From: Gottschalkiaceae bacterium SANA
Lineage (GTDB): Bacteria > Bacillota > Clostridia > Tissierellales > GPF-1
Assembly (NCBI GenBank): GCA_036323355.1
Contig: AP028876.1
Coordinates: 3,224,001 to 3,288,000, forward strand
Length of the DNA stretch: 64,000 nucleotides
Direction: 5' to 3'
Part shown: positions 5,376 to 15,257 of the stretch, in pieces
Layout of the letters: the number at the start of each line of letters is the position of its first letter
Numbering within the stretch: position 1 is the first letter of the stretch
The notes under the pieces: generated by a model
What the model saw: the letters and a program-made list of their open reading frames with translations, nothing else
What the model was told of the DNA's origin: nothing
Databases searched by the model: none
Program-made: the position numbers and the translations under genes

Positions 5376-5402
5376 AAAAAACCAGAGGATCTCTCCTCTG
5401 GT
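5376..5402 (-). terminator. Terminator of the tandem small-peptide operon
   Basis: A perfect nine-base stem (ACCAGAGGA / TCCTCTGGT, loop TCTC) reads on the minus strand into six Ts. It lies 14 bp after the last small gene, which supports a real minus-strand transcript through 5416-5817. Confidence 0.8.
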
Positions 5403-5415
5403 TTTGTCAGCTAAC

Positions 5416-5520
5416 TTATAGGTGTTCAATTCGGCGATATAAATCCATGCCTTCATCCGTTTTCAAATCATTGGTAGATGAGATGCTAGCAGGAATCAAA
5501 ATATGGAAGATCATTTTCAT
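5416..5520 (-). CDS. Small peptide A (34 aa) with conserved GMDLYRRIEHL C-terminus
   Basis: A 34-codon frame with an ATG after AAAGGAGAAAGTG, a strong ribosome-binding site. The N-terminal half is hydrophobic (KMIFHILIPASISS), the middle is polar, and the last eleven residues are GMDLYRRIEHL directly before the stop. Two further genes immediately upstream share this ending, although the rest of their sequences are unrelated. It is the last gene of the trio, 14 bp before the terminator. I recognise no family. A secreted or processed signalling peptide, an enzyme-recognised substrate peptide, or a small regulatory protein would all fit. The chance of three such endings, each with a ribosome-binding site, arising by accident is very low. 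Confidence 0.72.
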   Translation of the reverse strand: MKMIFHILIPASISSTNDLKTDEGMDLYRRIEHL

Positions 5521-5547
5521 CACTTTCTCCTTTTCTTTTCGTTCTAT

Positions 5548-5652
5548 TTAAAGGTTCTCAATTTTTCTATATAGGTCCATTCCTGATTGACTGACTTGTT
5601 GTTTGCAATCGGCTAGTGTTACATCGGCAATACAGTTAAATCTATTTTTCAT
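5548..5652 (-). CDS. Small peptide B (34 aa) with conserved GMDLYRKIENL C-terminus
   Basis: A 34-codon frame, ATG preceded by GAAGGAGAAGAAA. The N-terminal half contains two cysteines (Cys7 and Cys16 in KNRFNCIADVTLADC), then a Gln/Ser-rich linker, then GMDLYRKIENL and the stop. The shared ending is ten of eleven positions conservative with peptide A. It sits 27 bp upstream of peptide A and 63 bp downstream of peptide C in one transcript. The two cysteines are absent from the siblings, so the N-terminal part may be the variable, functional or cargo part. No function is known to me. Confidence 0.72.
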   Translation of the reverse strand: MKNRFNCIADVTLADCKQQVSQSGMDLYRKIENL

Positions 5653-5715
5653 TTTCTTCTCCTTCGATTTCCAATTTATTTAGGTTTTCATTTTTTCTTA
5701 GGCTTTCTTTTAACT

Positions 5716-5817
5716 CTATAGATGCTCAATCTTGCGCAAGAGGTCCATTCCCGTATCGAGTTCATCGTAATTGTAATGCTCGAGTTCTGCTGGATAGATC
5801 TTTTTAAATAACAACAT
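5716..5817 (-). CDS. Small peptide C (33 aa) with conserved GMDLLRKIEHL C-terminus
   Basis: A 33-codon frame and the first gene of the trio. The ATG follows AAAGGAGGAAAACCTG. The N-terminus is LLFKKIYPAELEHYNYDEL, acidic and aromatic, and the peptide ends GMDLLRKIEHL before TAG. A consensus promoter lies about 62 nt upstream. The three peptides differ in stop codon, codon choice and nucleotide sequence within the shared motif, which argues for selection on the protein ending rather than recent DNA duplication. Unrecognised family. Confidence 0.72.
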   Translation of the reverse strand: MLLFKKIYPAELEHYNYDELDTGMDLLRKIEHL

Positions 5818-5885
5818 CAGGTTTTCCTCCTTTACTGGATTCATTTTCTATCATTTACAAGGCTCTTTTCTCTCTTTCCATCTTT

Positions 5886-5914
5886 AGTATAAACCCATTA
5901 ATTAATATTGTCAA
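5886..5914 (-). promoter_or_regulatory. Consensus promoter of the small-peptide operon
   Basis: On the minus strand TTGACA (5909-5914), a 17-bp spacer and TATACT (5886-5891). This is the closest match to the vegetative consensus I found in the window, with transcription expected to begin near 5879. Confidence 0.85.
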
Positions 5915-5922
5915 CATTAAAA

Positions 5923-5956
5923 TTGAATATATTAATGTTATAATTAATATATTCAA
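5923..5956. repeat. Perfect 14-bp inverted repeat upstream of the small-peptide promoter
   Basis: TTGAATATATTAAT at 5923-5936, six bases, then its exact reverse complement at 5943-5956. It starts 8 bp upstream of the -35 hexamer, the usual place for an activator or repressor site. The surrounding 5900-6060 is extremely AT-rich with further imperfect palindromes (for example around 5953-5978 and 6020-6062). Confidence 0.7.
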
Positions 5957-6074
5957 CATATATACTAGATATATTGATGATATAAGCTTGTCGACCCCAA
6001 TATCTTGTTCTATAGAAACAAGTATTTAATATAATTAATATTCAAGTTAATATTATTAATTAATTTCTTGCTTA

Positions 6075-6100
6075 ATAAAAGCGCCAGTAAACTGACGCTT
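6075..6100 (-). terminator. Terminator of the MscS gene
   Basis: Arms AAGCGCCAGT (6079-6088) and ACTGACGCTT (6091-6100) with one mismatch. The minus-strand transcript runs into TTTTATT. Confidence 0.7.
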
Positions 6101-6112
6101 CTTCTCAATTCT

Positions 6113-7983: not shown

Positions 7984-9036
7984 TTACCAGTAGTTACCGG
8001 TTTCTGTTTCATAATAGCGTTTCAAATCATAAGGGCTATAGATCCCACGATCCGTAACCACACCACTCACCAAGGCAGGCGGTGTAATATCAAAGGCAGG
8101 ATAGTATCCCTTAACGCCATCCAAGGTATTCTTAATGCCACGGCATTCAAGAACCTCTGCTGGATTTCGTTCTTCAATGGTTACATCATTGATGGTCTTG
8201 TACACTTCATCAGGGATGCCTGTTACAAAGTATGGAACACCAAAGTATTTTGCTGCAATGGCAATTTGCATGGTTCCAACCTTGTTGACCACATGGCCGT
8301 CCATGGTAATAGAATCCGCTGCAGATGTGAAAAGATCAATTCCCTTTGTCTGCATGGTGAATGCCGGCATATTATCCGTAATCACCGTTACATCAAAACC
8401 CATGTCATAGGCAACCGATGAAGTCAATCGAGCCCCTTGAAGATAAGGACGCGTTTCCGGACAGAATAACTTAATGTTTTTCTGTCTCTCTTTCGCTTCT
8501 CGCAACATCATACCAACGATGGTCTCACCAAAGCACTGGGTCATAATCTTCCCGTTGTCCGGGAACATGTCCACCAAATAGGTGGCCACTTCGCCAATCT
8601 TTGCATAGCGGCGGTTCATGGAATCAATGGTATGCAGGAAGATGGCCTCATCAACTGCTTTGCCCGCTTTCAGCGCCTTTTCTGCAACCTTCAGGCAACC
8701 GCCTACAATCATTTCCATACGGTTCACGGTTGTTGGTCGCGCGTGGGACAAACGATAAGCCGCTTCCTTCAGGTAGCTCATTTGATCCGCTTCCTTTAAC
8801 TTCTTACATTCATCCGCAGCAAGAGCCATACCCATGCTGGCTGCCGTATAAGGACCCGCGCTTTGCGTGACCATGTCCGCGATGGCTTGTGCCACCTCTT
8901 GGTGCGTGTTACACGTAACAAATTCAATCTTTGTCGGATAAATTCGTCGATCCAATATTCGTACCTTTCCAGCTTCATACCAAGCAACATGCTCGTATTG
9001 CAGCATAAAGGCTAGATTTGCATCTTCTCTTTTCAT
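7984..9036 (-). CDS. mtnA: MtnA-like methylthioribose-1-phosphate / 5-deoxyribose-1-phosphate isomerase
   Basis: A 350-residue member of the eIF-2B alpha/MtnA isomerase family, which opens aldose 1-phosphates to the ketose 1-phosphate. The family catalytic pair is present: Cys168 in MTQCFG and Asp241 in SAADSI, together with the RPYLQGARLT and ITDNMPAF motifs and NKVGT. The ATG at 9036 is chosen because a GGGGG site lies eight bases upstream and the gene then starts 26 bp after the permease. As the last gene of the operon it would convert methylthioribose-1-P (or 5-deoxyribose-1-P) from the phosphorylase into the substrate of the class II aldolase. Ribose-1,5-bisphosphate isomerase is the main alternative but lacks support from neighbours. 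Confidence 0.85.
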   Translation of the reverse strand: MKREDANLAFMLQYEHVAWYEAGKVRILDRRIYPTKIEFVTCNTHQEVAQAIADMVTQSAGPYTAASMGMALAADECKKLKEADQMSYLKEAAYRLSHARPTTVNRMEMIVGGCLKVAEKALKAGKAVDEAIFLHTIDSMNRRYAKIGEVATYLVDMFPDNGKIMTQCFGETIVGMMLREAKERQKNIKLFCPETRPYLQGARLTSSVAYDMGFDVTVITDNMPAFTMQTKGIDLFTSAADSITMDGHVVNKVGTMQIAIAAKYFGVPYFVTGIPDEVYKTINDVTIEERNPAEVLECRGIKNTLDGVKGYYPAFDITPPALVSGVVTDRGIYSPYDLKRYYETETGNYW

Positions 9037-9062
9037 TTCGTCAACCCCCTGTGTCTTTCGCA

Positions 9063-10424
9063 CTAAGCAGCTTTGTTGTCTTTTGCTCTTTGTGCTTCCA
9101 CTTGTTTCACTTTTGGTTCACGAATAAAGGCATAAGCAATAACCAATGCACAATATCCGGCCATAACTTTCAAACCAAACGGTCCTATAAAATCAACACT
9201 CGAATAGAAACCAAAGGCATAAATACCCGCACTTGCAATCGGCAAGGCATACATAGCCCACATTGGCAATTTAAAATAAGCATTCTTGTATGCTTCAGGA
9301 TTTTTCTTAGGCAAGAACATGACAGCCAATACTGGGAAGATCGCGAAGATCAAACCAATATTATTACCAATAATGGCAATGTACTCAATCGTTCCGCCTG
9401 TAATAATTGGAAGCATGCCTACGATGTAGAAGATGCCCAACAACAAATGCGGTGTTCCATATTTTTTGTTCTCAACTGCTAATGCCTCAGGCAACCAACC
9501 ATCAGTAATTGCCATTTTAATTCCCTTTGTACACCATGCGAATACGGCGTTCAAAGAAGAAACCAAGGCAAACATGGCACCACCAACAATAAAGAAGACG
9601 TAAACAGCTGGAGGGAAAATTTGCTTAGCAACAGAACCCAAGGTTTGGAAGGCTACATCACTGACTGGAAGTACGCCAGATGCAACAACACCCATGAAGA
9701 AATAAACAACCGCAACGATCAAAGTAGAAAGGATCATGGCACGAGGAATTTCTTTTCCTGGATTTTCACATTCACCGCCCAACTCAGACAAATACTCTGC
9801 GCCGATCAAGGCAAAACGAACCAGGAATGTTGCCGATACAAAACCCATAAATCCGGATGGCATAATATTGGCCACTTGGAAGAATGAACCAAAATCTTTT
9901 ACCTGTGGCAAACCAAAGGCAATAAACAGACCCAATGCCGCCAAAAGCATAACAACCATGATATTTTGAATGAAAACAGCTGTTTTCAATCCGCGAAGAT
10001 TCGCGAAAAAGATCAAGGTCATAATGACACTGGCTACCAATACACTATTTAATCCTGGAATAAATTCCTTTGCGTACTCCGCAAAGCCGATTGCATAATT
10101 GGCCAAGACCAATTGCCCTGCTACCAATAGTGCCACGTAGAAAAATGCCGTTTTTCGACCAATTAAGTCACGCACATAGGTATACATGCCACCATTAGAC
10201 GGAATGGCTGAACCCAATGCCGCCAAAGCCGTAATGGGAATAATAATCAAGATTGCCGCTGCGATAAAAGACCACGCCACCCCTTGACCAGTTAAACCAA
10301 TTGCAATACCTGTTAAAATCATGATTCCTGAACCGATGATCTGTCCAACGGACACGCTCATCAAATCCATGAAGCTAATTCCCTTCTTCTTTCCACCAAC
10401 CTTTGAATTTTTAGACACCTTCAT
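9063..10424 (-). CDS. APC-family permease
   Basis: A 453-residue membrane transporter with about twelve helices. It begins with the APC signature (VGQIIGSGIM in helix 1) and the internal GGMYTYVRDL and GAEYLSELGGE motifs of amino acid/polyamine permeases. The ATG at 10424 is only two bases from GGGAG. A GTG two codons later has better spacing and may be the true start. It lies between the aldolase and isomerase genes of the MTA/deoxyadenosine operon, so it may import the nucleoside, methionine or a related compound. The family does not settle which. Confidence 0.85.
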   Translation of the reverse strand: MKVSKNSKVGGKKKGISFMDLMSVSVGQIIGSGIMILTGIAIGLTGQGVAWSFIAAAILIIIPITALAALGSAIPSNGGMYTYVRDLIGRKTAFFYVALLVAGQLVLANYAIGFAEYAKEFIPGLNSVLVASVIMTLIFFANLRGLKTAVFIQNIMVVMLLAALGLFIAFGLPQVKDFGSFFQVANIMPSGFMGFVSATFLVRFALIGAEYLSELGGECENPGKEIPRAMILSTLIVAVVYFFMGVVASGVLPVSDVAFQTLGSVAKQIFPPAVYVFFIVGGAMFALVSSLNAVFAWCTKGIKMAITDGWLPEALAVENKKYGTPHLLLGIFYIVGMLPIITGGTIEYIAIIGNNIGLIFAIFPVLAVMFLPKKNPEAYKNAYFKLPMWAMYALPIASAGIYAFGFYSSVDFIGPFGLKVMAGYCALVIAYAFIREPKVKQVEAQRAKDNKAA

Positions 10425-10535
10425 TTCTCCCTTCGATTTTGAATTCAATTTTCCTAGCAAACATCTATGAGTTCTTATTAAAACCAAGTTTATGAAGCTT
10501 CTGCCTATTCCTGCTGTCTCAATGCCTATTTCTAT

Positions 10536-11159
10536 TTAACTGTTGCGCATGGCCTCAACATATTCTTGAGGGATCACTTTCACATTTCCCGCATTTTTTG
10601 CAATATGATAAATCTTTGCCGCGTCTTCTAAATATATCGAAGACATAAAGGTTGATCGAATCGAACTACCGATGGCAAGAGTACCATGGTTTGCCAACAA
10701 ACAGCCTTTTCGGTCATTCATCACTTTCAAGGCTTCCAGACCAAGCTCTGCAGTACCCGGCATACCGAAGGCCGCTACAGGTACATCGCCACCCAAAAAC
10801 GGTACCATCTCGATAAGAATTACAGGGATACCCTCTTGGCATACGGCAAAACCCGTTGCATATGGGGAATGCGTATGAAGAACACAGCTAATGTCTTCTC
10901 GATCCAAATACATTTGCGCATGCATCTTCCATTCAGAAGACGGATCATGTTTACCTTCAATGATTGTTCCATCTAGCTTCATCACAACCAGATCTTCAAT
11001 CGTCATCCCATCGTAGGACACACTGGATGGAGTAATGATCATAGCTTGACTTTCTTTATCATAAACGCTTGCGTTACCACTGGTCCCTGCCATCAATTTC
11101 AATTCGTAAGACTCCAATGTCACATCAAGCAATTCAGTCTTTAATTTCTTCACACTCAT
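10536..11159 (-). CDS. Class II (fuculose-phosphate-type) aldolase, probable MTRu-1-P/5-deoxyribulose-1-P aldolase
   Basis: A 207-residue zinc aldolase of the fuculose/rhamnulose-1-phosphate family. Phosphate-binding loop residues appear as GTSGNAS (25-31) and TPSS (43-46). Glu76 and His95, His97 and His158 (LHTHS, ANHGT) supply the catalytic and zinc ligands. The ATG has GGAG six bases upstream. In this operon it would split methylthioribulose-1-P or 5-deoxyribulose-1-P into DHAP plus (methylthio)acetaldehyde, as in the bacterial DHAP shunt. An MtnB dehydratase has the same fold, but no MtnC, MtnW/X or MtnD gene is present, which favours the aldolase reaction. Confidence 0.85.
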   Translation of the reverse strand: MSVKKLKTELLDVTLESYELKLMAGTSGNASVYDKESQAMIITPSSVSYDGMTIEDLVVMKLDGTIIEGKHDPSSEWKMHAQMYLDREDISCVLHTHSPYATGFAVCQEGIPVILIEMVPFLGGDVPVAAFGMPGTAELGLEALKVMNDRKGCLLANHGTLAIGSSIRSTFMSSIYLEDAAKIYHIAKNAGNVKVIPQEYVEAMRNS

Positions 11160-11174
11160 TCTAAACTCCAATCT

Positions 11175-11915
11175 CTACAGGTCTACTGCAATCAATGCAT
11201 CCAAACCAATAAGGATGCTCTTCTCTACGGTTCGTTTCAACAATTCTGGATCCGGATCATTCTCTTCTGCCGCTTCCAAAACTGCCAAGGCATTTCCATC
11301 AACAGAAAGTACAGAACCTGCGCGAGCACCAAATACGCTTGCCGCTGTGTAAAGGGCTGCAATTTCCATCTCCACCGCAATAGCGCCAGATTTCATTTGC
11401 TCTACCGTATTCGTCGGCATTACCCCGCCGTAGAAGGCACCTTGTGTAACAACAATACCCTTGAAGGCTTCCATTTCATTGTCTTTTGTGCTTTGGACCA
11501 AGGCGTTGGTAACATCCAAATCCGCAATGGCCGGGAATGATGTTGGTACGTAAATATTAGCTACACCGTCTTCTTTGGCTGCCGCTGTCGCAATGATCAA
11601 AGATCCAGCTTGAATTTCCGGCTTCAACCCGCCGCATGTACCTACACGGATCAACACTTTCGCGCCGCCCTTAATTAAGCTGATAAAAGAAAGCATGGCA
11701 CCACTAGCCCCGATTCCATGGGATGAAACTGTTATGGTTTGACCCTTCCAGTCCCCTCGATAAGTCCAGTATTCACGACCCTTAGCAAGACAGGTCATAT
11801 TGTCGAGCATGTTAGCAATTTTCTCGGCGCGATATGGGTCTCCACAAACCAAAACACGGGGTGTAATATCTCCAACTTGCAGTCTAATTCCTGGTAGTAA
11901 ATTTTCCTCTGACAT
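11175..11915 (-). CDS. Purine-type nucleoside phosphorylase (PNP/UDP family)
   Basis: A 246-residue cytoplasmic phosphorylase of the NP-I (DeoD/Udp) fold. Phosphate-binding motif GDPYR lies near residue 25, HGIGASGA and RVGTCGG form the phosphate/ribose site, and VEMEIAALY carries the family's ribose-binding glutamates. An active-site aspartate that separates purine from uridine enzymes is plausibly the one in SVDGNAL. It follows the deaminase gene by 24 bp with GGGAGG ahead of the ATG. Because the neighbouring enzyme deaminates the adenine ring, the natural substrate is probably 5'-methylthioinosine, 5'-deoxyinosine or inosine, giving hypoxanthine and the ribose-1-phosphate derivative. Confidence 0.85.
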   Translation of the reverse strand: MSEENLLPGIRLQVGDITPRVLVCGDPYRAEKIANMLDNMTCLAKGREYWTYRGDWKGQTITVSSHGIGASGAMLSFISLIKGGAKVLIRVGTCGGLKPEIQAGSLIIATAAAKEDGVANIYVPTSFPAIADLDVTNALVQSTKDNEMEAFKGIVVTQGAFYGGVMPTNTVEQMKSGAIAVEMEIAALYTAASVFGARAGSVLSVDGNALAVLEAAEENDPDPELLKRTVEKSILIGLDALIAVDL

Positions 11916-11939
11916 ATTTTTTTCCTCCCTAAGTAATTT

Positions 11940-13232
11940 CTATTTGATCAATCGCTTTGCGATATTTTTGACTTGGTATTTGATTTTTTCTTCATCCACA
12001 AATTTCATTTCGCGATTTTCCATCAAGACCCGACCATTTACAATCACGGTATCCACGTCCGATCCCTGCATGCTATACACTGCCGCCGAGAATGGATTAT
12101 TTAGTGGTGTCAAATGCGCCTTATCCGTATCGATTAAAATAAGATCTGCTTTCTTGCCAGGCTCAAGGGTTCCCACTTCATTGCCAAAACCTGTCGCTTT
12201 GGCCCCATTAACGGTTGCCATGCGAAGGACTTCCTTTGCATTGACTACCAAGGGATTCATCTGATTTCCTTTGTGAATCATGGACGTTAAATGCATCTCT
12301 TCTACAAAATTTAGGTTACTGTTACTGGATGCGCCATCGGTTCCGATCGTTACATTAATGCCCTCAGCAAGCATGCGCGGCACGTCAGCAATTCCACTTC
12401 CCAACTTCAAATTGCTCGATGGACAATGAGCAACGCTGATGTCTCTTTTTTTAAGGATTTCAAAGTCACCATCTGTTAAATGCACACAATGTGCTGCCAG
12501 AGTTGCTACATCAAAGACGCCCCACTCTTCCAACATTTGCATGGGTGTCTTTCCATACTTTTCAGCAATCTGTGCTTGTTCGAAAGGTGCTTCCGAGATA
12601 TGAATCTGAATCCCCGTATTCGCTTCTTTCGCTGCTGCAACACGAGCACGAATTTTTTCTTCCGAATAGGTGTAAATCGAATGAATAATAGCAGATTCTT
12701 TTATCAATCCATCGTGAGAATTGTTCCACTTTTTCATGTGTGCCACATATTCTTCATATTCTTTGTCTGGATTGATCGTAATATGAGGTCCGGCAACATT
12801 TGCTCGGATTTGATTTTCAACCACCAAGTCCATGATGATATTACTCGGTTCATACATGTCGGCGAAGCAGGTAACCCCACTTTTAATCTGTTCAATCACA
12901 CCCAGCATGCCGCCCCAATAAATATCTTCCTTACTGAATTTCTCTTCTGTAGGAATCATCTTGCCAAATAGCCAGTCATCCAAAGGAAGGTCATCTCCAA
13001 AGCATCGAAGAATAGTCATGGGCGAATGACTATGGGTGTTGACGAATCCCGGCATAGCCATTTTGCCTTTTGCATCAATCACGCGATCCGCCTTAAAGGA
13101 AACAACCGCCTCTGTTTCAAGAGATTCAACAAAAACAATCGTACTATCTTCTATACCGATCCATCCGTTTTCAATGACGCTCATGGCCTCGTCAACGGGT
13201 AAAATTCTTGCATTTTTAATTAATAATTTCAT
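11940..13232 (-). CDS. mtaD: Amidohydrolase, 5'-methylthioadenosine/S-adenosylhomocysteine deaminase type
   Basis: A 430-residue metal-dependent deaminase. His67 and His69 (GFVNTHSHS) bind the metal, later HISEA, AAHCVH and GTDGASSNSNLN supply the remaining ligands and the substrate pocket, as in MtaD proteins that convert MTA, SAH or adenosine derivatives to inosine forms. Length and motif order are typical. The start lies only 3 bp after the stop of the alcohol dehydrogenase gene, so translation is probably coupled; its own ribosome-binding site is weak. It gives this operon an entry step by deamination rather than direct MTA phosphorolysis. Confidence 0.88.
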   Translation of the reverse strand: MKLLIKNARILPVDEAMSVIENGWIGIEDSTIVFVESLETEAVVSFKADRVIDAKGKMAMPGFVNTHSHSPMTILRCFGDDLPLDDWLFGKMIPTEEKFSKEDIYWGGMLGVIEQIKSGVTCFADMYEPSNIIMDLVVENQIRANVAGPHITINPDKEYEEYVAHMKKWNNSHDGLIKESAIIHSIYTYSEEKIRARVAAAKEANTGIQIHISEAPFEQAQIAEKYGKTPMQMLEEWGVFDVATLAAHCVHLTDGDFEILKKRDISVAHCPSSNLKLGSGIADVPRMLAEGINVTIGTDGASSNSNLNFVEEMHLTSMIHKGNQMNPLVVNAKEVLRMATVNGAKATGFGNEVGTLEPGKKADLILIDTDKAHLTPLNNPFSAAVYSMQGSDVDTVIVNGRVLMENREMKFVDEEKIKYQVKNIAKRLIK

Positions 13233-13235
13233 TCT

Positions 13236-14399
13236 CTATACCGCCATTTCTAGGATCTTTACAATATCCTCTGCATTAATTTTTTTAAAGTTTCCTACGT
13301 ATTCGGAATTTTGCGTTGCCTTCTGTGCCATCAAAGCAAATTGATCAACAGGAACCCCAGCCTGGGACAAACGAACTTGAAGACCCAAATCTGTGAAGAA
13401 TTTTTCTAAAGCGCAAATTCCACTTTCCGCCAATCCCAGGCGGTCACTTGTCTCAGCCACACCAAACACCTCACTTGCAAAGCGACAGAAGCGTTCAATA
13501 TTTGCATCCTTCACATAACGCATCCACGATGGGAAGACCATGGCCATGCCAGCACCATGAGTCACGTCATAAAGGGCACTAATTTCATGCTCAATGCGAT
13601 GAGAAGCCCAATCTTCAATCCGGCCCGAAGACAACATGCCGTTGTGAGCTACCGTTGCCGACCACATAATTTCGGCTGCGTGATCATAGTTCTTTGGCTC
13701 CGCCATCAACTTCAATCCCGCTTCCATGACCGCTTTCATTGCACCTTCTAATAGAAAATCACTTAGAATCGTCTGCTTTGTCGGTGTGAAATATCGTTCC
13801 ATTAAATGAGACAGAATATCAGCAATGCCCGCCGCCATCAAACGAGGCGGAATGGTCAAACACATTTCTGGATTTAGAACCGAAAAGACTGGTACAATCA
13901 GTTCATTATCAATGCCATATTTTAATTTTTGCTCTTCATGAGTAATGATGCTGCTTTCTGACATTTCTGATCCCGAACCCGGAATCGTTAATATAGTCCC
14001 AACCGGCAAAGCAGATTCAGGTGTTGCACTTCCCGTATAGAAATCCCAAACATCTCCCCCATAAGGGACACCCATGGCAATGGCCTTTGACGAATCAATG
14101 GCTGAGCCACCACCAATGGCAAGGATAAAATCAACGTCCTCTTTGCGACAAAGCTCAATTCCTGCGTGAACTTTCGTCAACCTTGGATTAGGCACAACCC
14201 CATCCAAGACAACAAAATCAATGAAATTTGCTTCCAAAGACTTTGTCACTCGATCCAATAGTCCAGATTCTACAACATGCGCACCGCCATAATGAATCAA
14301 AACTTTTTTATATTTACCCGCGATCTCTTGTCCAACTTGAGACTCTAGTCCCTTGCCAAACAAAATACGTGTTGCGCTTTTAAATCGAAAATTATCCAT
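13236..14399 (-). CDS. Iron-containing alcohol dehydrogenase (BdhA/YqhD type)
   Basis: A 387-residue NAD(P)H-dependent dehydrogenase. The nucleotide site is GGGSAIDSSK (96-105). Iron ligands are likely Asp and His in GIADILSHLMERY and the later histidines in the EDWASHRIEHE...THGAG region. AGGAGG precedes the ATG. In this operon a natural role is reduction of acetaldehyde or 2-methylthioacetaldehyde released by the aldolase, giving ethanol or methylthioethanol and sparing the cell a reactive aldehyde. That role is inferred; the family is otherwise broad in substrate. Confidence 0.88.
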   Translation of the reverse strand: MDNFRFKSATRILFGKGLESQVGQEIAGKYKKVLIHYGGAHVVESGLLDRVTKSLEANFIDFVVLDGVVPNPRLTKVHAGIELCRKEDVDFILAIGGGSAIDSSKAIAMGVPYGGDVWDFYTGSATPESALPVGTILTIPGSGSEMSESSIITHEEQKLKYGIDNELIVPVFSVLNPEMCLTIPPRLMAAGIADILSHLMERYFTPTKQTILSDFLLEGAMKAVMEAGLKLMAEPKNYDHAAEIMWSATVAHNGMLSSGRIEDWASHRIEHEISALYDVTHGAGMAMVFPSWMRYVKDANIERFCRFASEVFGVAETSDRLGLAESGICALEKFFTDLGLQVRLSQAGVPVDQFALMAQKATQNSEYVGNFKKINAEDIVKILEMAV

Positions 14400-14410
14400 A
14401 TCTCTTCCTC

Positions 14411-15178
14411 CTATTTGCAGACCAGAAGCTCCACTTCCAGATCCTTAAAAACTTGTTTATATTCTTTTGGCACCTTCCTGTCTGCAATCACAAGATCCAG
14501 GTCTTGAATTTCACAAATTGGATTGACAGCCGGTGTATCAAATTTTGTATAATCAACAATCAACACTTTTTTCACGGAACGTTCCAACATGGTCTTTCTC
14601 ACTTGCCCTTCTGCCTCGTGATTATCCGTTACACCAAAGCCTCTCGTAATCGCCGTGCAAGAGACAAAGGCAATGTCAGCTGATAGGTTTGAAAGCGCAT
14701 GTGTTGCCATATATCCCACTAATGAATTGGTCGACTTACGCAATGTACCCCCAATAGAAATCACTTTGATCGTCTTGCTTTCAGATAACTCGCTGGCTAT
14801 TAGAAGTGAATTGGTCATCACAGTTGCCTTTTTGCCACTTTCATCTAGATTCTTTGCCACATAAAGAGCCGTTGTACTGGAATCAAGCATCACGCTCATT
14901 CCATCTTCAATCATGGAAAGACATTTTGCCCCAATCAATTGCTTTTCTTCTAAGTAAATCGTCTCTCGAATCTTAATGGGCACCTCATTGTCCGTTGTTG
15001 CTGGTAAAAATGCACCCCCACGTACCCGCTTGATTTTCATATTCTTACTGATCTTATCCAGATCACGACGAATCGTTTCTTCAGAAACATTCAGGGAAAT
15101 ACTCAGTCTGCTAATGACCACACTTCCATTTTCTTTTAATAATTCTTCTATCTTCTTTAATCGTTCGATCGCTAACAT
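14411..15178 (-). CDS. DeoR-family transcriptional regulator
   Basis: A 255-residue regulator with an N-terminal winged helix (ISLNVSEETIRRDLDKI, then RVRGGA) and a C-terminal sugar-phosphate-sensing isomerase-like domain. The ATG at 15178 is chosen for GAGGAG seven bases upstream. It is the first gene of the operon, 11 bp ahead of the alcohol dehydrogenase gene. A phosphorylated pathway intermediate such as (methylthio)ribose or ribulose-1-phosphate is a plausible inducer, since DeoR proteins usually sense sugar phosphates. Its promoter and that of the neighbouring YczE-like gene share an unusual repeat array that is a candidate binding site. Confidence 0.9.
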   Translation of the reverse strand: MLAIERLKKIEELLKENGSVVISRLSISLNVSEETIRRDLDKISKNMKIKRVRGGAFLPATTDNEVPIKIRETIYLEEKQLIGAKCLSMIEDGMSVMLDSSTTALYVAKNLDESGKKATVMTNSLLIASELSESKTIKVISIGGTLRKSTNSLVGYMATHALSNLSADIAFVSCTAITRGFGVTDNHEAEGQVRKTMLERSVKKVLIVDYTKFDTPAVNPICEIQDLDLVIADRKVPKEYKQVFKDLEVELLVCK

Positions 15179-15257
15179 AAGTGATCTCCTCTCTGGTCTT
15201 ATCCGTCTTTTATTCATTTTCGTTTGAATTCTCGAATTAAACTCACCTTATCATTCG

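Follow-up and report, generated by a model that had tools for sequence, protein, structure and literature searches.

What is encoded by three consecutive short genes that share a common ending of eleven residues? The question is raised by a locus, referred to below as L1, on the minus strand of the window, i.e. the whole stretch of 64,000 nucleotides that was analysed. The initial annotation of this DNA had proposed a constant C-terminal part joined to variable N-terminal parts, as in peptide signals, modified peptides or processed substrates.

The three genes of L1 and their control region

The reading frames (33, 34 and 34 codons; Table 1) are found where the initial annotation had placed them and are characterized by the ending G-M-D-L-(L/Y)-R-(K/R)-I-E-(H/N)-L. 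A degenerate DNA pattern for this motif matches three times in the window, a number reached in 0/100 dinucleotide-preserving shuffles (mean 0.00). As had been described, the codons of the shared motif are not identical among A, B and C, and a strong ribosome-binding site, GGAG(G), is present 6-8 bases 5' of each start. For gene C, an in-frame GTG at position 5523 would add one residue. The start of the peptide is hydrophobic in C and in neither A nor B, for which reading by eye detected no signal-peptide-like stretch and no long hydrophobic or transmembrane-length stretch. The two cysteines that had been taken as the mark of the B class do not define it, since the number of cysteines in B copies ranges from one to three.

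Table 1. Features of L1 and of its flanking regions (positions in the window; G001 and G002 are the two other species of the genus)
Feature	Position	Strand	Remarks
Peptide gene A, 33 aa, MLLFKKIYPAELEHYNYDELDTGMDLLRKIEHL	5716..5817	minus	stop TAG; first in unit; orthologues in G001 and G002
Peptide gene B, 34 aa, MKNRFNCIADVTLADCKQQVSQSGMDLYRKIENL	5548..5652	minus	stop TAA; one copy in G001, three in G002
Peptide gene C, 34 aa, MKMIFHILIPASISSTNDLKTDEGMDLYRRIEHL	5416..5520	minus	stop TAA
Shared C-terminal motif of A, GMDLLRKIEHL	5719..5751	minus	ORF translation and motif scan
Shared C-terminal motif of B, GMDLYRKIENL	5551..5583	minus	ORF translation and motif scan
Shared C-terminal motif of C, GMDLYRRIEHL	5419..5451	minus	ORF translation and motif scan
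Promoter TTGACA-17-TATACT, sigma-70-type	5886..5914	minus	11/12 consensus; kept in three species
Operator-like region	5899..5982	minus	two copies of a 42-nt unit (76% alike), spacing 42 nt; overlaps the -35 box
Distal AT-rich arm	6026..6064	minus	79% complementary to 5897-5935 (figure without shuffle control)
Intrinsic terminator of the three-gene unit	5378..5405 (about)	minus	RNA hairpin and U run, -18.3 kcal/mol, z -5.68

The single consensus promoter and the single terminator that had been proposed are both found (Table 1). The terminator does not appear in the list of the consensus scan and was identified by RNA folding instead. Upstream of A, the three species of the genus agree exactly in the -35 box, the -10 box, the sequence ATCAATATATCTAG and portions of the 5' leader. 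The operator-like region contains the inverted half-sites TTGAATATATTAAT and ATTAATATATTCAA, which are 14/14 complementary and 6 nt apart. From 300 dinucleotide shuffles of positions 5880-6070 (82% A+T), none contained a perfect 14-nt inverted pair at a spacing of 3-20 nt, and the best direct repeat reached 29 matches, against 32/42 in the real sequence. These repeats are kept only in part in G001 and G002. The region looks like a putative cooperative operator with about four helical turns per unit, and we infer that it acts as such on the L1 promoter.

L1 is a closed three-gene unit. Upstream, the same strand carries an MscS-type channel gene followed by a hairpin (6066-6112, z -3.48); downstream, an M42 peptidase gene is convergent. 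Neither a maturation enzyme nor a cognate-receptor domain was found among the 11 window neighbours scanned (two of which have no Pfam match), and their only transporter is an amino-acid permease. The initial statement that L1 adjoins no maturation enzyme or transporter, so that a partner may be encoded elsewhere, is supported as far as adjacent genes are concerned.

Distribution of the family

The sample of the genus, whose members are anaerobic, is composed of the window's own genome (G000), G001 and G002. A single-sequence search of 60 relatives gave clear matches only in these three genomes; matches in four genomes outside the genus, with E values of 0.76-1, were rejected as weak. L1 is syntenic in both other species, with A, B and C in G001 (3 copies) and A, three B and C in G002 (5 copies). 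A profile of the 11 L1 peptides (A1), run on 249 genomes of the order, revealed members of the family at two further loci within the genus, named L2 and L3. A second profile (A3), built with 8 peptides of L1A, L2 and L3, recovered 22 members in 3/3 genomes of the genus (6, 7 and 9 per genome), and these 22 members stop 0-1 residues past the last L/I of the motif. The recurrence of the motif in small tandem genes of relatives, which the initial annotation had put forward as a check, is therefore observed, and it extends to loci with different neighbours. L1 and L2 are syntenic in 3/3 species. No neighbour common to L1, L2 and L3 was seen, in support of the view that no partner is encoded next to these genes.

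L2 is located between a pair of ABC exporter genes on the same strand (best NCBIfam matches MsbA-type, below cut-off) and a beta-CASP metallo-hydrolase gene. Its two peptides, MRRFKFFHFPVELMHFNFMRR(G/V)DGMELYRRIERL and MKRL(F/I)TWIYSS(Q/E)LxFWNFEKKVDGM(D/N)LYRSIERIS, have a basic/aromatic N-terminus. Between the exporter pair and the peptides, at least eight RNA hairpins are present (L030:6212-6640, corresponding to about 1436211-1436639 of G000:C1; MFE -152 kcal/mol, z -8.57), with no match in Rfam. Five of these hairpins have common closing and loop bases of the AUUGnUUUAnAU type and different stems (one shows two differences from the searched pattern), and most of them are linked by CACGA or CCAAGGAGG. 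The five occurrences of the AUUGnUUUAnAU-type pattern in G000 are all in this array, with none in G001 and G002 at up to two mismatches; variant hairpins occupy the place of the array in these two genomes. Two arginine-rich mini-ORFs, RVKDDHELRKRR (L030:6641-6733) and RRKAWREDRFVRKRKG (L030:6868-7002), alternate with the family peptides and, by eye, seem to be related. Their coding evidence is weak, with few changes and a dN/dS of 0.43-0.63 for the second. No such basic companion ORF was seen by eye at L1, and outside L2 the only matches to the second type (E 0.29 and 0.38) had no fitting gene on reading.

The L3 peptides are 3a (MKVFCFLFPAELEHFNYDTQNDGLDLYQRIEHLR, as in G002) and 3b (MKWLKHIFPKDLESFNYEHEDTALDIYRKIEHIK, as in G001). 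In G001 and G002, L3 follows an ECF sigma gene and a gene of 392 aa without Pfam or NCBIfam match; the succession sigma gene, 392-aa gene and family peptide is found at L031:7890-9526 and L032:2228-3867. The 392-aa protein gave no credible match in PDB or among plasmids. For 3a of G001 an own start is not evident, the frame opening within the end of the 392-aa gene. In G002, a radical SAM gene located at L3 carries biotin-synthase domains. G000 keeps L3b among other genes, with an HD-domain protein behind it and, about 2 kb away on the other strand, a gene of a MatE-type transporter; neither the 392-aa gene nor 3a was detected in this genome. The sigma and 392-aa genes were rejected as general partner of the family, since G000 has six members without the 392-aa gene and with only distant sigma relatives (24-26% identity). 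An alternative-sigma promoter (GGGTAT-like) shared by L1, L3 and the ECF sigma gene was also dropped, since by eye the -35 parts disagree. Upstream of L3b, a conserved palindrome-like sequence AACATAGnGTTTTG followed by AAGTGGGTATATAAA is present in the three species (L055:6500-6750, and in G001 and G002), and represents a possible operator and promoter.

Beyond the genus, no convincing member was detected in the order (249 genomes, two profiles), the class (391 genomes) or the phylum (398 genomes), these samples overlapping. At the level of the order (E<=0.05), A3 matched in 13/249 genomes, i.e. the three of the genus and ten with weak partial matches. The eleven matches of these ten genomes have E values of 0.016-0.049; seven are in frames of at least 256 codons and one has three stops. 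On reading, two (G134 and G175) had no fitting gene, and the 31-codon frame of G053, which contains MLDIYKKIEDVRP, shows a partial likeness and does not end at the motif. The A1 matches of G155 and G236 are short parts of frames of 456 and 261 codons. In the class (E<=0.01), 3/391 genomes matched A3: the own genome and two that were dismissed (G355, E 0.0036; G450, E 0.0089) for want of a fitting small gene. In the phylum (E<=0.01), 3/398 genomes matched, the own one and two with weak matches. One of these (G751, E 0.0027) covers 12 positions within an 883-codon frame, and the other (G653, E 0.0090) had no fitting small gene on reading. A pattern scan of contigs, limited to the L1-type ending, gave 3 and 5 matches in DAOUQF010000002.1 (Eubacteriales CSMAG_119) and JABXKS010000072.1 (Clostridiales GPF-1), respectively. 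Plasmid and phage matches, obtained with one query peptide each (E 3-8), are not credible, and 28 stretches of viral contigs failed confirmation.

Pfam and NCBIfam contain no family matching A, B or C at E<=10. The best Pfam match among 20 members (Prok-E2_A, E 0.18, and not Spo0E), the best PHROGs match of A, B and C (E 0.074) and the best PDB match of the A3 profile (TSR1, E 0.14) were taken as chance; PADLOC gave no credible match for five peptides. The literal motif retrieved no paper, and topic searches no relevant family, as judged from the listings. These results agree with the initial remark that no known family has such an ending. The family is new and restricted to the genus in the samples searched; its kind, that of lineage-restricted small proteins, is already known. 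Such families, with fewer than 50 residues, come from comparative genomics. The present one resembles them by its short length, its protein-level conservation in a narrow clade and the lack of a domain match, and differs by its tandem paralogues at three loci, their similar C-terminus and the fast N-terminal part of the B class. Families of this sort have no entry in the domain libraries that were searched, and gene callers that apply a length limit may overlook them.

Homology and selection along the peptides

The N-terminal parts of seven peptides were compared by a shuffle test (21 pairs, P values uncorrected). A gave P<=0.001 with C, and P<=0.0044 against all of C, L2a, L2b, 3a and 3b. For C, the values are 0.0012-0.013 with L2a, L2b and 3a, and 0.068 with 3b; L2a against 3b gave 0.26. 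B gave 0.05-0.45 with the six others. From these values, A and C most likely share homology with the L2 and L3 peptides over their full length, and B most likely has an N-terminal half that was lost or replaced. The N-termini had been described as unrelated, which holds for B and fails for A against C. The following composite is read from the alignments: M-K-x-L-F-x-x-I-F-P-A-E-L-E-x-F-N-Y-D-x-x-x-D-G-M-D-L-Y-R-R-I-E-H-L.

Between species, the whole-gene dN/dS is 0.07-0.12 for C (three species pairs), 0.13 and 0.16 for B (the third pair is saturated at synonymous sites; one of the three G002 copies was used) and 0.06-0.21 for A. The low values of C and B demonstrate the conservation at the protein level that had been deduced from the codons. 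In B, the last 11 codons display a pS of 0.72 and a pN of 0.027 (pN/pS 0.04), and the remainder a pS of 0.65 and a pN of 0.304 (pN/pS 0.47), on the basis of 7 cross-species pairs that are not independent. These values correspond to 33.0 synonymous differences in 45.7 sites and 5.0 nonsynonymous differences in 185.3 sites for the tail, and to 53.5 in 82.0 and 115.5 in 380.0 for the remainder. The near-frozen tail supports a constant functional C-terminal helix in B. In C, the pN/pS of the tail and of the rest are 0.18 and 0.20, even along the length (pN 0.077 vs 0.136). A is conserved throughout (pN 0.025 vs 0.052), and L3b has the least constrained tail of these genes (pN 0.151 vs 0.190 in the rest). 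Judged by these position-split values, the pattern of a constant tail and a free head is real for B and not for the whole family. The constant C-terminal part of the initial annotation is therefore retained, above all for B (0.04 vs 0.47), and the variable N-terminus is not a general rule: the A, C, L2 and L3 peptides are for the most part homologous in their N-terminal half as well, and several of them show strong conservation there.

Synonymous sites present a second signal. Against G001 and G002, respectively, A has a pS of 0.28 and 0.32, L2a of 0.15 and 0.25, L2b of 0.19 and 0.19, and L3b of 0.38 and 0.30. For the neighbour genes (5 and 4), the 541 and 549 overlapping 34-codon segments have medians of 0.60 and 0.68 and minima of 0.26 and 0.33. 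Segments with a pS as low as that of A number 1/541 and 0/549, and L2a and L2b (0.15-0.25) are below every segment. The synonymous sites of B and C show no constraint. An overlapping coding frame does not account for the constraint in A, every other frame having a stop in at least one species, and local RNA structure is ruled out at L1, where none of five RNA stretches is unusually structured (z -1.07 to 0.98). The low synonymous divergence in A and L2 may stem from codon bias or local recombination.

Proposed docking on a common partner and other explanations

A, B and C are very probably chromosomal, vertically inherited members of one genus-restricted family, and we infer that they are translated. 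We tentatively favour, at somewhat less than an even chance, the explanation that this family consists of intracellular small proteins that use an amphipathic helix at the C-terminus to dock on a single partner encoded elsewhere. The last 11-12 residues (G/A-M-D-L-Y-R-K/R-I-E-x-L) would form this predicted helix, the terminal element of the chain. The AlphaFold2 model of A (alignment of 20 rows) is poor, with a mean pLDDT of 64.3 and a pTM of 0.23, and its best-predicted part is a helix at residues 21-32 (pLDDT 71-73); Foldseek found no PDB match with this weak model. Over their last 11 residues, the five L1 and L2 peptides of G000 reach hydrophobic moments of 0.64-0.82, a marked amphipathicity, and the C-end of the L3 peptides has lower values (0.26 and 0.35).

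A partner common to the family and acting in trans would most simply account for the similar ending that stands at the very C-terminus at three loci whose neighbours differ. The helix would dock on this partner, whose gene would be located elsewhere in the genome, and the outcome of docking would be set by the N-terminal two thirds (a hydrophobic/basic start, then PAELEHFNY in the seemingly older members), a part that would be free to change in the B copies. As promoters and neighbours differ from one locus to the next, different conditions may feed versions of the peptide to the same partner, and the AT-rich operator array over the L1 promoter may control the unit. The role would be that of an adaptor or inhibitor, presumably inside the cell. 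The synteny of L1 and L2 in the three species speaks for a chromosomal household function and not for a mobile trait. Docking is also favoured by the purifying selection on C along its length and by the absence of a long hydrophobic stretch in A and B. The low moments of the L3 peptides count against it, as do the L3b tail, which is almost as variable as the rest, and the tails of A and C, which are not set apart as in B. The synonymous sites of A and L2, more conserved than a protein-only role requires, and the position of L2 beside an ABC exporter pair, compatible with secretion, also count against it.

Sda, MciZ, SR1P and the Spo0E-like proteins are small intracellular regulators of Firmicutes with a single protein partner. 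These regulators resemble the present family in size range, soluble helical character and the single protein partner proposed here. They are encoded by single genes, are not known to form a multi-locus tandem family, and the family described here has no credible Pfam match. It would represent a compact case in which the constant docking end and the diversifying end of a 34-residue protein are separable from sequence alone, and the finding of the partner would show several inputs reaching one target through tiny interchangeable proteins. A wider version, which we regard as rather improbable, is a genus-wide network of 6-9 peptides and three differently controlled loci. In this network, one C-terminal address would be read by a single receptor, protease, exporter or regulator of an undescribed type, the other end would be diversified by tandem duplication, and the L2 mini-ORFs and hairpin array may form an RNA-protein device.

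The peptides could instead be exported without a classical leader and act outside the cell, either as signalling peptides or as a leaderless bacteriocin made of several peptides, the C-terminus being the part recognized by a receptor or an exporter. Leaderless multi-peptide bacteriocins include the garvicin KS and aureocin A70 type, and a constant receptor motif at the C-terminus is known from the LsbB/EntK1 type; members of the LsbB group have a variable helix followed by a conserved C-terminus. The tandem leaderless genes of L1, with 33-34 codons and strong ribosome-binding sites, are similar to the 30-35 codon genes of these bacteriocins and to the LsbB group in their C-terminus. Secretion is also consistent with the ABC exporter pair ahead of L2, the MatE-type gene near L3b in G000, the fast-changing N-termini of B and the net charges of the L2 peptides (+4 and +2). 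Against this, the charges of A, B and C (-3, +1 and -1) are unlike those of cationic leaderless bacteriocins, A and B have no signal-peptide-like stretch, and L1 and L2 occupy the same place in 3/3 species and not a patchy one. The direct neighbours of L1, a channel and a peptidase, are not exporters or immunity genes, the sole transporter of the wider set being the amino-acid permease, whereas L2 does follow an ABC pair. Because of the charges, the neighbours of L1 and the vertical inheritance, secretion is less supported than intracellular docking, and we consider it unlikely.

The related categories of the initial annotation (peptide signals, modified peptides and processed substrates) receive no specific support, for lack of a maturation enzyme among the 11 neighbours and of a signal-peptide-like stretch in A or B, and because the constant part is C-terminal. 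In RiPP precursors, the leader is a constant N-terminal part and the core a variable C-terminal part, contrary to the arrangement found here, and L1 has no maturation enzyme among the scanned proteins (two without Pfam match). Compared with RRNPP/Rgg pheromones, a hydrophobic N-terminal segment is read in C only, and L1 has no receptor gene at its side (channel and peptidase) nor such a domain in the 11 window proteins.

The transcripts may also be as important as the peptides, with the short frames acting as sensors or leaders that control other genes through their translation or their RNA. The unusually low synonymous divergence of A, L2a and L2b and the hairpin array ahead of L2 argue for this explanation. 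L1, however, closes at its own terminator with a convergent gene next to it, its RNA structure is ordinary, the synonymous sites of B and C are unconstrained and selection on the amino-acid sequences is clear, so that we hold a transcript role to be improbable. Membrane-active peptides of the type I toxin kind, kept in check by an antisense RNA, would agree with short tandem genes, the hydrophobic N-terminus of C and the basic/aromatic one of the L2 peptides. We hold them to be very unlikely in view of the lack of a transmembrane-length stretch in A and B, as read by eye, and of a suitable antisense promoter: the promoter scan (8 sites found, 6.1 expected by chance) gave no plus-strand site within 5416-5817, and the plus-strand site at 5917-5944 is directed away from the genes. 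Finally, chance or decayed repeats without function would fit the lack of homologues outside the genus, but are already refuted by the low dN/dS, with frames open in 3/3 species and conserved ribosome-binding sites and promoter, unless the signal of selection represents an overlapping constraint.

Elsewhere in the window, positions 7984-15217 of the minus strand contain a cluster composed, according to Pfam, of an IF-2B-like isomerase, an amino-acid permease, a class II aldolase and a nucleoside phosphorylase, and continued by genes reading as an amidohydrolase, an iron alcohol dehydrogenase and a DeoR-type regulator. We take this cluster to resemble those of 5-deoxyribose or methylthioadenosine salvage (DHAP shunt).
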